Below, one piece after another: positions 30,195 to 35,643 of a DNA stretch of 64,000 nt. Source of the stretch: Solidesulfovibrio carbinolicus (lineage in GTDB: Bacteria; Desulfobacterota; Desulfovibrionia; Desulfovibrionales; Desulfovibrionaceae). Position 1 is the first letter of the stretch. Each line of letters opens with the position of its first letter. The notes beneath the pieces are model-generated. The model was not told where the DNA came from and did not search any database. It saw only the letters and a list, made by a program, of their open reading frames with translations. The position numbers and the translations under genes were made by a program. The stretch is from NCBI RefSeq assembly GCF_004135975.1, contig NZ_CP026538.1, forward strand, positions 1,550,001-1,614,000. The letters run 5' to 3'.

Positions 30195-30650
30195 TTCCCT
30201 GGAAAGTGATTGGTGAAGTCCGTCTTGCGAAAGGACATGCGACTTGTCGCCTGCTGTTTTTGATTGTCACACAAAAACTGTACGTTATCAATCAGGCCAG
30301 CCTCCCGGATAGCGTCGTCGAGTTCCACTGCGGCTATGAATTGGCGCATTGTGGTCGGGGGCGCGTGTGTTCTGGGGAATGGCGTTCGGGTGTTTGACTT
30401 CTCAAGGCGTTTGGGGCATTTTTCTTTGTTCGGAAGCTGTTTGCCGAGTTGTCGTTTAAGGCGGGGCCGTGTGCTTGACAGGCCACGGGCATGACCTCGT
30501 CACATAAAGCAATCCCACGAAATATCATCGAAAAATGATCCTTTTGGCGAAAGGCCAACGGGGTCTTGCTTTGTTGTCGGTCTGACGGGCATGGGCCGGC
30601 GCTGCCTGGGGCAGCTGTCGGCCCGAAACGTTTACGGAGAAGGTGAGTCT
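30195..30650. other. Intergenic region between the GDSL autotransporter and the Hsp70-like gene
   Basis: This divergent 456-base spacer is less GC-rich than its surroundings. On the minus strand it holds one promoter candidate. On the plus strand TTGACA at 30475-30480 has no -10 box at usual spacing. No RNA gene or repeat was recognised. Confidence 0.5.
30263..30291 (-). promoter_or_regulatory. Predicted sigma-70 promoter of the GDSL autotransporter
   Basis: Read on the minus strand, TTGATA (30291-30286) and GACAAT (30268-30263) are separated by 17 bases and would give a leader of about 65 bases. Confidence 0.45.
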
Positions 30651-31916
30651 GTGGCTCTTGGCATTGACTTTGGAACATCAAATTCCGCTGTTGGTTTGTT
30701 GAAGGACGGATTGTCTTGCCTCGTCGCGTTGGAGGACGGGAAACAGACGATCCCCAGCGCCATTTTTTATGACACGGAAGAAGATGCCGTGCGCTTTGGC
30801 AATGAAGCAATAGCGTTTTACATGGACGGCTGCGAAGGCCGGTTGCTGCGTTCGCTCAAAAGCATACTGGGTAGCTCGCTGGTCAACGAATCAACGGAAG
30901 TGGGGTACAAGAATATCGCCTTCAAGGATATCATTGTCACCTTTGTGCGGCATTTGAAGGCAACGGCGGAAACCGCTGTCGGCCATGACGTGGACCGCGT
31001 CGTCATGGGAAGGCCTGTCCGGTTTGTGGACGCCGACGAGCAGGCCGACGTCCTGGCCCAGGCGCATCTGGAAGAAATCGCCAGGAAAGCCGGTTTTCGC
31101 GAGGTGCTTTTCCAGTACGAACCCATTGCGGCCGCCTTGGATTACGAGCAGTCGGTAAAGCAGGAAGAACTCGCCCTCATTGTCGATATCGGCGGCGGAA
31201 CGTCGGATTTTTCCGTTGTCAGGGTGTCGCCGGACAGGCGGGGCAAGGCCGACCGCAAGCAGGACATCCTGGCCAACACAGGCGTGCATGTCGGCGGAAC
31301 CGATTTGGACCTGAAACTGAGCCTTGAGCAGGTGATGCCGCTTTTCGGCTACAGGACGCAGACCAGGAGCCTGCATCCCGGCGATCCCATTCTGGACTTG
31401 CCGCCAATGTACTATCGCGAGCTGGCGACTTGGCACAAGATCGTGTTTTTGTATAACAACAGGGCCTTGCAAGGGGTCAAGAACATCAAGTATCATGCCC
31501 AGCGCCAAGATTTGGTCGACAGGCTGGTCAGGATCATTGAGCGCCAGGAAGGTCATCGTCTGGCCGGCGATGTCGAAGCCGCGAAAATCGCGCTTTCGCA
31601 GCAGGATGCCGCCTCGATTTCCTTGAATTACGTGGAGAAAGGGCTGGAAGCTTCCCTGCGTCGCCAGCCATTCGAGTCCGACATTGCGCCTGAAACAGCA
31701 AGCATCGTGTTGAAAATAAACGAATGCCTCACCCTTGCCGGCGTCCCGGCCTCGGCCATTGAGACGCTTTTCATGACGGGCGGCAGCACCGCCATCCCGT
31801 GCATCGCCCAAGCCTGTCGCCAGACCGTGCCTGCTGCCCGCTTGGTGGAAGGGAGTCGGTTCGGCAGTGTGGGCATCGGGCTGGCTCTGGATGCCGGCAG
31901 GAAGTTCGGGCCATAA
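30651..31916 (+). CDS. Hsp70-family protein, YegD-type
   Basis: The 421-residue protein is the ATPase half of an Hsp70. GIDFGTSNSAVG is the phosphate 1 loop, VDIGGGTSDFSVV the phosphate 2 loop, and FMTGGSTAIPCIAQ the adenosine motif. The substrate-binding domain of DnaK is missing, as in E. coli YegD. The role of YegD proteins is not settled. Translation probably starts at the GTG at 30651, six codons into the visible homology and behind GGAGAAGG (30636-30643). Composition is noticeably less GC-rich than the flanking genes and many codons end in A or T, which hints at transfer. No J-domain partner is adjacent. Confidence 0.85.
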   Translation: MALGIDFGTSNSAVGLLKDGLSCLVALEDGKQTIPSAIFYDTEEDAVRFGNEAIAFYMDGCEGRLLRSLKSILGSSLVNESTEVGYKNIAFKDIIVTFVRHLKATAETAVGHDVDRVVMGRPVRFVDADEQADVLAQAHLEEIARKAGFREVLFQYEPIAAALDYEQSVKQEELALIVDIGGGTSDFSVVRVSPDRRGKADRKQDILANTGVHVGGTDLDLKLSLEQVMPLFGYRTQTRSLHPGDPILDLPPMYYRELATWHKIVFLYNNRALQGVKNIKYHAQRQDLVDRLVRIIERQEGHRLAGDVEAAKIALSQQDAASISLNYVEKGLEASLRRQPFESDIAPETASIVLKINECLTLAGVPASAIETLFMTGGSTAIPCIAQACRQTVPAARLVEGSRFGSVGIGLALDAGRKFGP

Positions 31917-32104: not shown

Positions 32105-32743
32105 TTACGGGTTCATGGAAAGCGTTGCATCCTGTTGGGCCAGGAAGGCCGCATGAGCGCGGGGCAGATAGAGGCTCGAAAACAGGTACACCGTTCCCGT
32201 GGACGTCCTGATGGTCGCGATGTCCTGAAATTGTGGCTTGACGGCCATGGCGTCGAGGATGGCGGCGACGTCAGACGAGGCGAGATCGAAGGGCGGCTTC
32301 TCGAAGAGTTCGACCGGCACGGGGCGCGGGTAGTCCCGGGAGTGTGAACGTATGGCCTCGGCCAAAAGCCTGTCCGGGGCGTCCTGGTTGTCCAGCAACC
32401 GGGCGTAGCTGCGACTGAGCCGGGCCGGGTCGTGGTAGAGGGTCTGGCCGGACCGGCTGGCCAAGGACGCGATTTCGGGCAAGTCCGCGACGATGGCGGC
32501 CAGCGCCGTGCATGGATCGTCTGGCGGCGACGTTTCCAGGTGTTCGGCCAAGCCGCGCTCCCGCAGCCCTTCCAGGATGTCCTGCACAGCGATCAGCCGA
32601 GGTTCGCCGCCGGCTTCCCGGATAATCTCCAGAATCGCCCGGGACAGATCGGCTTCTTTGGCTGGCTCGGCCAGCCCGGCCGGATCAGGTAGCCCGGTCG
32701 GATCGGGCCGGTCGGCCGCGTCGGGTGTGCCTGCCGCGCTCAC
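32105..32743 (-). CDS. Unknown protein overlapping the AOR gene, two winged-helix-like halves
   Basis: The 212-residue product starts at GTG 32743, whose TG is shared with the TGA stop of the AOR gene (4-base overlap), so translation is coupled. After a Pro/Asp/Ala-rich N-terminus (about 1-30) two segments of about 80 residues each show a helix-helix-helix-hairpin pattern: the first begins LSRAILEIIREAGGE, the second LLAEAIRSHSRDYP. That suggests a tandem winged-helix fold, by eye only. No family is recognised. Its position as third gene behind the Tat-ferredoxin and AOR points to an accessory or regulatory role. Confidence 0.75.
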   Translation of the reverse strand: MSAAGTPDAADRPDPTGLPDPAGLAEPAKEADLSRAILEIIREAGGEPRLIAVQDILEGLRERGLAEHLETSPPDDPCTALAAIVADLPEIASLASRSGQTLYHDPARLSRSYARLLDNQDAPDRLLAEAIRSHSRDYPRPVPVELFEKPPFDLASSDVAAILDAMAVKPQFQDIATIRTSTGTVYLFSSLYLPRAHAAFLAQQDATLSMNP

Positions 32744-34857
32744 TTGGCGGCCTCGGGCGTGAGCCTGGCGGCGGCCAGGGTTTCGCCCACGTCCGCCAGG
32801 CCCAGTTCGGCGTAGCGCGCCTGGCTCGGCGCTCCAGTTGTTTTCTCCCAGCCCATGACCTCGTAGAAATAGTCCATGGCCTGGGCGATGTCGGCCGGGT
32901 CCATGCGGATGGTTCCCTTGGTCAGGGCCGCCGCGCCACTGGGGTCCTCGAAGACCCAGGGCGGCACAACGTCGTGGGCGGCGCGCATGTCCACCCGCCC
33001 CATGTCCCGAATGGTCAGGGCCCGGTGCAGGGTGAAGATGCGCTCCGCCACCCGGTCCAGCGCTTCCCGGTCCATGGTCTGGCCGGTGGCCAGGCTCAAC
33101 AACTTCGACTCCAGGCTGTCGTCCCCGGCATAGCCGCGCTCGCGAAGGGGAGAAGCCGCCCAGGGCCCCATCCAGTTGCACACCCCAAGGGCGTCGTGCA
33201 GTTCCTTGCGCAAAAGCGACCACTTGGCCCGTTTGGCTTTGTGCACGTTGGCCGGCGTGTAGTCTCCCGGCGCGTCCAGGGCGTCGGGGGACCCCCAGAT
33301 GGCGGCGGCCAGTTGTTTTTGCACCTCCAGGGGCAGGCCGTTTCGCACGAAGTTCGTGTGGGAGTGGCACTGGGCGTCGCGGTTGTACTGGGTGTTGATG
33401 ATCACCCCGCACTGGCCGTCGTCCTCGTTGGCGTGGTGCTTGGCATGGCCCATCTTCCAGTAGGTCGTCGTGTGGTCCTGGGCCCATTCCGATTCCGGGA
33501 TGGACCAGTGGTCGAAGATCGCGCCCGTGCCGCGACTGAGCACGTCCCCGAGTTCGCCCTGGCGGTTGGCGATGCGGGGCAGCAGGTCGAGCAGGAAGGC
33601 CGGATCGGCGCGGTCGTACTTGTCCCAGGGGATGGAGGCGTATTCCTTGGACCCGAGCCGGGCCTTGAGATAGCCGCCTTCGTAGAGCTTGCGCAGGTCG
33701 CGTTGCAGCTGGCCGTAGTTGGACCACAGGCCTAGGTCGTCGGCCAGATGCATGCCCACCATGCAGGCCTCCATGGCGGCCTCGCTGTTTTTGACCCCGG
33801 CCAATTGCTTGAAAAACGAGCGTCCGAACATGAGCGCCACGCAGGTGTTTTGGCCCGTGTCCGGAATGCCGTATTTGGCCGTCACCGACGGCATCTTGAG
33901 CATGGTGTGGCAGCGGATGGGGCAGGCCGTGCAGCCGTTGCCGCGCACGGTGTATTTCCAGGCCTCGTCGCCCAGGAAATAGGCCGCGCTGTTGGTGCGA
34001 AAGGCGATGCTGTTCGGGTCGTGGATGTCGCCGGTGATCTCGACGGGCGGTCTGGCCGCCCCCCATCGCTTGCCGGGCTGACCGATCCAGCGCGAGGCCG
34101 GATTGTAGTATTCGGCCTGGGGCGTGGGGAAGCTTGGGACAATGTGCTGGTTGTTGGCGCCAAGGATGGAGAGGTGGAACTTGACCAGGGCCTCCCAGGC
34201 GTCCTTGTCCCCGGCGATGCGCACCGCGCCGCTGCCTTGCACGGCCACGGCCTTGAGGTTCTTGCCGCCCATGATTCCGCCCACGCCGCCGGCCGAGTGG
34301 GATACGGAATTGATCACCATGCCCATGGGAGCCAGGTTTTCCCCGGCCTGGCCGATGGCCGCCACCACGCAGTCCGGCCCCAGCTCCTGGCTTATGGCCA
34401 AGGTGGTCCGGCGGATGCCCGTACCCCACAAGCGCCGGGCGTCGCGGATCTCCACTCGGGCGTCGCGGATCATGAGCCACACCGGTTTGTCGGCTTTGCC
34501 TTCCACGATCAGGGCGTCGTAGCCGGCATATTTGAGCTTGGCCGCGAAATGCCCGCCCATGTGCCCCGAGCCGACCAGCGGCTTGGGCCAGCAGGTGGGA
34601 AAAAGCGTGGTGATGGTGGCCCGGCCGTTGCAAGGCACGCTCGTGCCGACAAGGGGGCCGGTGGCGAAGACGAGCTTGTTGGCCGCGTCAAAGGGGCCGG
34701 TCCCGGCCGGGACCTCGTCCCAGAGCACCCGGTAGCCGATGCCGGCCCCGCCGAGCAGGGCCGCGTAGCGCTCGCCGGTCTCCTCGGTGGTGATCTTGCC
34801 GGTGGAGAGATCCACGCGCAGGACCTTGCCGACAAACCCGCCGCTGCCTGGGGCCAT
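32740..34857 (-). CDS. aor: Aldehyde:ferredoxin oxidoreductase (tungsten-type) catalytic subunit
   Basis: The 705-residue protein belongs to the AOR family, which oxidises aldehydes to acids, or the reverse, at a tungsten bis-pterin centre. The N-terminus KVLRVDLSTGKIT and the stretch GGHFAAKLKYAGYDAL are characteristic. The proximal [4Fe-4S] cluster ligands are C309, C312 and C316 in GCTACPIRC, with C560 in GVCNWMG as the fourth. No signal peptide is present. AAGGAGT precedes the ATG. The gene follows the polyferredoxin gene by 24 bases and overlaps the next gene by 4. Similarity to the YdhV branch is possible because of the linked YdhY-like ferredoxin. Confidence 0.93.
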   Translation of the reverse strand: MAPGSGGFVGKVLRVDLSTGKITTEETGERYAALLGGAGIGYRVLWDEVPAGTGPFDAANKLVFATGPLVGTSVPCNGRATITTLFPTCWPKPLVGSGHMGGHFAAKLKYAGYDALIVEGKADKPVWLMIRDARVEIRDARRLWGTGIRRTTLAISQELGPDCVVAAIGQAGENLAPMGMVINSVSHSAGGVGGIMGGKNLKAVAVQGSGAVRIAGDKDAWEALVKFHLSILGANNQHIVPSFPTPQAEYYNPASRWIGQPGKRWGAARPPVEITGDIHDPNSIAFRTNSAAYFLGDEAWKYTVRGNGCTACPIRCHTMLKMPSVTAKYGIPDTGQNTCVALMFGRSFFKQLAGVKNSEAAMEACMVGMHLADDLGLWSNYGQLQRDLRKLYEGGYLKARLGSKEYASIPWDKYDRADPAFLLDLLPRIANRQGELGDVLSRGTGAIFDHWSIPESEWAQDHTTTYWKMGHAKHHANEDDGQCGVIINTQYNRDAQCHSHTNFVRNGLPLEVQKQLAAAIWGSPDALDAPGDYTPANVHKAKRAKWSLLRKELHDALGVCNWMGPWAASPLRERGYAGDDSLESKLLSLATGQTMDREALDRVAERIFTLHRALTIRDMGRVDMRAAHDVVPPWVFEDPSGAAALTKGTIRMDPADIAQAMDYFYEVMGWEKTTGAPSQARYAELGLADVGETLAAARLTPEAAK

Positions 34858-34881: not shown

Positions 34882-35643
34882 TTATTTTCCGGCCTTGGCG
34901 CCGGCCGGGACATGGCAGTCCAGGCAGGCCTTGGCCGTCTCCGGGGAGACGACGGACAGGGCGGGCCGGGTCGGGCTGCCGTCGCGGGTGAGGTCGCGCC
35001 AGGGCACGTAGCGCAGGGCCGCCGCCGGACAGGCTTCCACGCATTTGGGCTTGCCATGGCACAGGGTGCATTTGGCGGCCACCCCGGCCTCCTCGTCAAA
35101 GGACAACATGCCCCAGGGGCAGGCCTGCTGGCACAGCCGGCAGCCCACGCACCGGGCGGCGTCGACCACCCGGGCCCCGGTTTTGGTGTCGGCGATGATG
35201 GCGTTTTGAGGACAGGCCGTGGCGCAGGGCACGGGATGGGGACACTGGCGGCACACGCCCTGGATCACCAGCCCGTCGCCCCAGTCTCCGTGCATGGCCT
35301 GGCCGCCGGTGGGGCCGGTTGGGCCGAAATTGACGGCCCGGGCGATCTTGATGCGGGCCAACGACGGCTGGGCCCGGCCGTCGTTATATTCCGTGCAGGC
35401 CAGTTCGCACCGGCCGCAGGCCACGCAGCGGGTGGGATCGGCCAGGATGACGCCCTGGGCGCTGTCCAGGATCACCAGCGGGGCGTTTTCGCCATAGGCC
35501 TCGCCAAGGCCCAGGAAGGCCAGACTGGTCAGCGCGCAGGCGGAGAGCTTGAGAAATCCCCGTCGGGTCAGCTCGGCCTCCCATCCGGTGGCCTTGGCCG
35601 CCTGTCCGATCCATTCCGACGAGATGCCGCGTTTGTTGTCCAT
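34882..35643 (-). CDS. Tat-exported four-cluster ferredoxin with a C-terminal CXXCH motif
   Basis: The 253-residue protein starts at the ATG at 35643 behind GGGAGG. Residues 27-34 read T-R-R-G-F-L-K-L, a twin-arginine signal, followed by a hydrophobic stretch. Four [4Fe-4S] sites are complete: C73/76/79/83, C131/134/140/144, C165/168/171/175 and C192/195/201/205. The tail carries C240-L-D-C243-H244, which has the form of a c-type haem attachment site. The protein would carry electrons for the AOR subunit encoded next. The combination of Tat export with a catalytic partner lacking a signal suggests joint export, or a signal that is retained as an anchor. Confidence 0.9.
   Translation of the reverse strand: MDNKRGISSEWIGQAAKATGWEAELTRRGFLKLSACALTSLAFLGLGEAYGENAPLVILDSAQGVILADPTRCVACGRCELACTEYNDGRAQPSLARIKIARAVNFGPTGPTGGQAMHGDWGDGLVIQGVCRQCPHPVPCATACPQNAIIADTKTGARVVDAARCVGCRLCQQACPWGMLSFDEEAGVAAKCTLCHGKPKCVEACPAAALRYVPWRDLTRDGSPTRPALSVVSPETAKACLDCHVPAGAKAGK

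Follow-up and report, generated by a model that had tools for sequence, protein, structure and literature searches.

In a 2026 classification, Class V WORs (clade 41) have a large subunit (L) equivalent to YdhV and a small subunit (S) equivalent to YdhY, and are probably respiratory (PMC13328260). The class is defined by an S subunit with a Tat signal and/or a transmembrane (TM) segment, together with at least one further subunit (PMC13328260). A Class V relative from Cetobacterium somerae oxidised none of 46 aldehydes (PMC13328260). In YdhV the metal is ligated by Cys336, while aldehyde oxidoreductases lack a protein ligand to the metal (PMC12096430). Hitchhiker export through Tat is described for periplasmic hydrogenases and formate dehydrogenases (PMC10924467). 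Haem attachment by System I has been described as acting on nascent, Sec-delivered chains (PMC6962350). Among nitrous oxide reductases, clade I NosZ is exported by Tat, and the clade II enzyme, which carries a haem c domain, by Sec (PMC11102522). The use of Sec by clade II hints that Tat and haem attachment may combine poorly. Tat exports folded proteins, and a conserved protein using Tat and then haem attachment would show a combination of the two pathways, in which folding comes first and a tail is left for the haem lyase.

We analysed a 64,000-nucleotide stretch of the Solidesulfovibrio carbinolicus genome (the window), which encodes three adjacent proteins termed Y, V and W. Y (WorS, YdhY orthologue; 34882..35643, minus strand) is a predicted Tat-targeted 4x[4Fe-4S] protein of 253 amino acids, with an ATG start and a Shine-Dalgarno-like GGGAGG upstream. 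Its nearest named relative is that of S. magneticus (91% over Y). The Tat motif reads TRRGFLKL and includes R27 and R28; together with the start of the hydrophobic stretch (RRGFLKLSAC, codons 27–36) it occupies 35536..35565 on the minus strand. Y contains 19 cysteines: 16 form four complete [4Fe-4S] motifs (73/76/79/83, 131/134/140/144, 165/168/171/175 and 192/195/201/205), one lies in the signal peptide (position 36) and two belong to CLDCH (codons 240–244; 34912..34926, minus strand), a C-terminal haem c attachment motif conserved across relatives. A Tat signal, four complete cluster sites and a C-terminal CXXCH, as recorded in a preliminary description of this DNA, were therefore all confirmed. 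The best NCBIfam match of Y was NF007382 (154.7 bits, under the curated cut-off of 213), and on this evidence Y is a relative of E. coli YdhY and not an equivalog by that model.

V (WorL, YdhV orthologue; 32740..34857, minus strand) lies directly downstream of Y and encodes a predicted Mo/W bis-pyranopterin oxidoreductase of 705 amino acids. It scored 1022.1 bits against NF007354, above the cut-off of 868. We take NF007354 and NF007382 to be the models for YdhV and YdhY, consistent with the E. coli ydh matches. W (YdhW-like; 32105..32743, minus strand) comes next, its GTG start overlapping the V stop. No Pfam family covering W was found; W queries matched beside V in most loci, indicating that W resembles E. 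coli YdhW. The V score, the best model for Y and the W matches beside V together identify the operon, at the sequence level, as orthologous to E. coli ydhY-ydhV-ydhW. A stand-alone Hsp70/DnaK-like ATPase ORF (GIDFGTSNS; 30591-31916, plus strand) on the opposite strand converges on the 3' end of the operon.

Cys339 of V aligns with Cys336 of YdhV and is a probable metal ligand of the YdhV type; among 141 aligned rows, 137 of the 138 with a residue at this position have cysteine. An aldehyde ferredoxin oxidoreductase in the strict sense holds its metal without a protein ligand, and V carries Cys339. Given this residue and the negative aldehyde screen of the C. somerae enzyme, we dropped AOR as the function of V and use it as a family name. 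The preliminary description had correctly given the partner no signal peptide; its view of that partner as an AOR in function was not supported. A YdhV-family large subunit, a Cys metal ligand, RRGFLKL in Y and W downstream are all present here, as in Class V.

A Pfam search of Y (E ≤ 0.001) returned Fer4-type Fe-S binding families only, and no cytochrome c domain. Conservation of the CXXCH in orthologues, the check set beforehand, was nearly complete, with values of 0.98 for C240, 0.99 for C243 and 1.00 for H244 over 86 relatives. For the same proteins the average was 0.39 across the linker (219–239), with values of 0.20 and 0.33 at the X positions. That C, C and H are kept while linker and X positions drift argues that CLDCH is more than chance. 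The distance from a conserved Trp to the CXXCH was 25 residues in 58 of the 85 tailed proteins. The motif formed the exact protein end in 13 of the 85 and lay one residue further in for 13 more. One relative (L095) has CX4CH instead, which is also a known haem c spacing. In another (L061) the gene is frameshifted, and the other frame reads KECLDCHLPR.

Tail frequencies were taken from V-based or family-level searches, because a search seeded partly with AKACLDCH, which gave 75 loci, is biased to tailed proteins. The family-level search matched Y in 35/199 genomes. CXXCH plus a few residues ended 27 of the 28 complete orthologues fetched from it (L001, L009–L035), the exception being L026, where the tail has decayed to RVGNH and V is still adjacent. 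A V-only search over the phylum found 16/395 genomes, with a tailed Y next to V in 15 of the 16 and a distant tailless exception (G482/L123). Among Bacillota, V occurred in 12/398 genomes, six tailed (G586, G592, G593, G604, G619 and G1200) and six tailless. Coriobacteriia had V in 30/149 genomes at 31 places; three genomes were tailed (G617, G621 and G622), 27 loci from 26 genomes were tailless and G716 was not fetched. The class-wide search of Gammaproteobacteria matched 1/321 genomes, namely its own Sutterella centre. Relatives of several phyla have the tail; the Y proteins of gut Coriobacteriia and of E. coli lack it, and in the tree they nest with those of tailed Coriobacteriia. This placement fits an older tail that was lost in both, in a tree whose rooting is not settled.

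Some loci differed in arrangement. In gut Coriobacteriia (L127–L153) Y was often on the strand opposite V, unlike the Y-V-W operon elsewhere. One Bacillota locus (L173, genome G1180) held two complete, adjacent Y-V-W operons, both tailless and with Tat signals; in its first Y the hydrophobic stretch is followed by a lipobox-like LSGCG. Another Tat-targeted four-cluster ferredoxin without a CXXCH tail was seen in a pair of genomes from the family, of which one belongs to the same genus (L175 in G109, SRRKLLKVLG; L176 in G041, SRRRMLQILG), and L176 also carries a different AOR-like gene. These ferredoxins look like a sister exported WOR type. Selenocysteine was considered for them and rejected, the flagged TGA being an ordinary stop.

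An AF2 model of Y, built with 44 sequences, had a mean pLDDT of 72.6. Its core was well modelled, but residues 234–244 formed a helix of weak prediction and the position of the tail was not usable. The modelled Fe-S core (62–218) matched AOR-family small subunits: 9mqx_E (Z 19.6, rmsd 2.0, 137 aligned), 6x1o_B (Z 17.3, rmsd 1.9, 135 aligned) and 8c0z_C (Z 16.5, rmsd 1.9, 137 aligned). No cytochrome c fold was found among the structural matches, in searches that barely probe the tail. An extra CXXCH (CTLCH, 192–196) was noted within the fourth Fe-S motif; it has the same form in 20 of the 85 tailed relatives and is not conserved. Folding of Y before export would hide CTLCH, which an unfolded chain would expose to the haem lyase.

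Motif II of the tailed proteins reads CPHPVPC (CAHPVPC in G1200) and is one residue longer than in E. coli and gut Coriobacteriia. Its histidine, H136 in Y (codon 35236..35238, minus strand), does not vary among the 44 aligned sequences. In a count over 121 rows, 85 had both tail and H136 and 35 had neither; the histidine occurred alone once (L026) and the tail alone never, so that H136 was present in 85/85 tailed and absent in 35/36 tailless rows. Dropped from this count were rows cut at the 3' end (L036, L107) or 5' end (L093, L104), interrupted by an X run (L100) or frameshifted (L061), as well as the distant L123, which has neither tail nor histidine and agrees with the rule; L037, L111 and L112 had been excluded earlier as distant paralogues. 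The two tailless copies of L173 read KDPVPC and KEPVVC, with the tailed-type spacing and no histidine. The joint occurrence of tail and histidine suggests H136 as a candidate second haem ligand. Supported branches of the tree gave two independent contrasts, with the histidine following the tail in one and not in the other, too few for a test. In formate dehydrogenase-type subunits the clusters of motifs II and III are on the side where electrons leave, a location that would suit a haem at this place. M179 was set aside as second ligand, being conserved about equally in tailed (80/91) and tailless (26/28) proteins.

The cytochrome assembly family PF01578 was found in 47/48 tailed genomes tested versus 8/14 control genomes, the tailed genome without a match being G613 (L092, 1.9 Mb). 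The S. carbinolicus genome has PF01578 above cut-off at three places, one of them a 693-residue CcmF-like frame. CcmF was above cut-off in 46/199 genomes of the Bacillota group. It was present in all five tailed genomes compared (G592, G593, G604, G619 and G1200) and in none of four tailless ones (G1142, G1155, G1170 and G1180), a split with a probability of 1/126 = 0.008 when kinship is ignored. The tailless G1359 and G1470 lay outside this comparison; the tailed G586 was not among the CcmF-positive genomes, possibly because it falls outside the 199-genome sample, and does have PF01578 matches. CcmF occurred in 107/149 Coriobacteriia, a base rate that makes it uninformative as evidence in that class. 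Since PF01578 and CcmF are this common in controls and Coriobacteriia, their co-occurrence with the tail is weak there. Ccm would be needed for a haem tail and is no proof of one, as E. coli and many Coriobacteriia have Ccm without the tail.

Both arginines of the Tat motif, R27 and R28, are invariant in 44 aligned relatives, and rows failing the strict RRxF pattern mostly read S/TRRQxL or SRRSVLKL. No RRxF motif was found in the 70 residues before the conserved start of V in any aligned V, and V is therefore most likely exported as a hitchhiker on the signal of Y, as judged from these sequences. The S. carbinolicus genome encodes one TatC. Y of the window has no membrane segment beyond its signal. 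Proteins of a Syntrophales/Nitrospirota group continue for 48–71 residues beyond the CXXCH, with one hydrophobic helix that mostly ends in R/K, an arrangement that places the CXXCH outside. This TM tail and a gene for a YdhU-like cytochrome b were both present in 14 loci and both absent in 70, where many loci are short and absence means absence from the fetched stretch; the TM tail stood alone once, in L092, whose locus shows no V either. The cytochrome b gene of L064 is a Ni_hydr_CYTB match. The preliminary description had left two options for the partner and had proposed that an Fe-S protein leaves by Tat after folding and also carries a haem-attachment motif. Travel of the partner with the ferredoxin is now the favoured option, and the proposed combination gains support from the sequences, the conservation test having failed to refute it. 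Anchoring of the ferredoxin facing inward was not supported, in view of the missing membrane segment and of the helices after CXXCH in relatives. W, the relationship to E. coli ydh and H136 had been overlooked.

A haem on the tail was weighed against the possibility that the CXXCH is not haemylated, its Cys and His instead binding another metal or an Fe-S site or forming a redox disulfide, perhaps at the interface with V or W. We consider this unlikely. A bare, terminal CXXCH in a protein with no cytochrome fold and 16 other cluster cysteines would suit such a role, and the tail is an accessory, since some relatives have the same partner and no tail. However, H244 is as strictly conserved as the cysteines, and the CX4CH variant occurs. 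The tested Bacillota without CcmF are tailless, and the Tat signal brings Y to where a CXXCH meets the haem lyase.

That signal also bears on whether Y and V could remain cytoplasmic or bound on the cytoplasmic side, with a Tat-like sequence that is an uncleaved anchor or unused, and with no haem attached. The RL in place of RR in E. coli YdhY speaks for this, as does the purification of CsWOR41L from cells without S bound (PMC13328260). Retention nevertheless appears very improbable given the invariance of R27-R28, the 15 relatives in which a helix mostly ending in R/K leaves the CXXCH facing out, and the reading of Class V as periplasmic already made in the field (PMC13328260). We give almost no credence to the CXXCH as a chance or vestigial feature of the lineage. 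The motif does arise by chance within Fe-S motifs, as in motif IV of 20/85 proteins, and L026 has lost its tail motif while V still adjoins, but this reading is contradicted by the conservation across several phyla despite divergent linkers.

We therefore favour, as the probable explanation, that Y serves as small subunit in a periplasmic Mo/W oxidoreductase of Class V (YdhV-type), and that the C-terminus of Y became a one-haem tag. From the operon, signals, motifs and conservation, and from the coupling of the tail to H136 and of the helix to cytochrome b, all visible in the sequences, we infer export of V, haem attachment, a ligand role and an electron partner as follows. Y would acquire its four [4Fe-4S] clusters in the cytoplasm and bind V once V holds its pterin cofactor, and the two would exit as a folded pair by Tat on the Y signal. 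The tail of about 25 residues would remain flexible and solvent-exposed, so that Ccm could attach haem c to C240 and C243 after export, with H244 as the proximal ligand. The best candidate for the second ligand is H136 on the motif II loop, through which the haem would be docked next to the Fe-S chain. Electrons may then travel, in either direction, along a path that links V through the four clusters and the haem to an outside partner: presumably periplasmic cytochromes c in Desulfovibrionales, and the neighbouring cytochrome b in the Syntrophales/Nitrospirota form with a helix after CXXCH.

More tentatively, and with confidence a little short of even, we propose a natural haem tag on the small subunit of a widespread Mo/W enzyme. 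Assembly of all clusters and of the partner would precede Tat export, and one haem c would be clipped afterwards onto the free tail, where its binding by a histidine of the Fe-S domain would give a continuous Fe-S-haem wire without a cytochrome fold. One clade would have extended the tail into a membrane anchor, with the haem bridging to cytochrome b. If present, the tail haem would give Class V WORs a definite route by which electrons leave and would make their physiological role (PMC13328260) testable.

E. coli YdhY-YdhV-YdhW, from the ydhYVWXUT operon, shares with the window operon its three subunits and their order; the V of the window is above the NF007354 cut-off, and the metal-ligand Cys is conserved. 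YdhY differs in ending where the tail would begin and in having RL for RR and E for H136, and the E. coli operon differs in also encoding a second ferredoxin, YdhX (TRRKFVLG), and the cytochrome b YdhU. AorA of Aromatoleum AOR, the small subunit of Pyrococcus WOR5 and 9mqx_E share the four-cluster core with Y (Z 16.5-19.6, 135-137 residues), and these matches stop at about position 218 of Y, before the tail. All three belong to what are presumably cytoplasmic enzymes. CsWOR41 of C. somerae is similar in its three-gene L/S/W operon and the Tat signal on S (PMC13328260). It differs in that tail and haem are absent from the main text of that paper, where the terms CXXCH, heme, haem and c-type do not occur, a comparison made by description and not with the S sequence (PMC13328260). 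Among the papers found in literature searches, no title or abstract described a haem tail for the YdhY family, and no paper linked YdhY with CXXCH.

The haem c addition of the clade II nitrous oxide reductase cNosZ is a whole cytochrome domain. cNosZ is a redox enzyme to which a haem c unit has been added at the C-terminus, as is proposed for Y, but it is exported by Sec and not by Tat (PMC11102522). C-tail-anchored Tat Fe-S proteins combine a Tat signal, Fe-S clusters, a C-terminal helix and a cytochrome b partner, as does the Syntrophales/Nitrospirota form; in the part of that account consulted, none is said to have a CXXCH separating the domain from the helix (PMC10924467), and Y of the window is without the helix. 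In the engineered C-terminal haem tag (Braun et al. 2005), a short CXXCH on a non-cytochrome is filled by Ccm, and nearby His residues give the second ligand (PMC6962350). That tag is artificial and Sec-exported, in which it differs from Y (PMC6962350).
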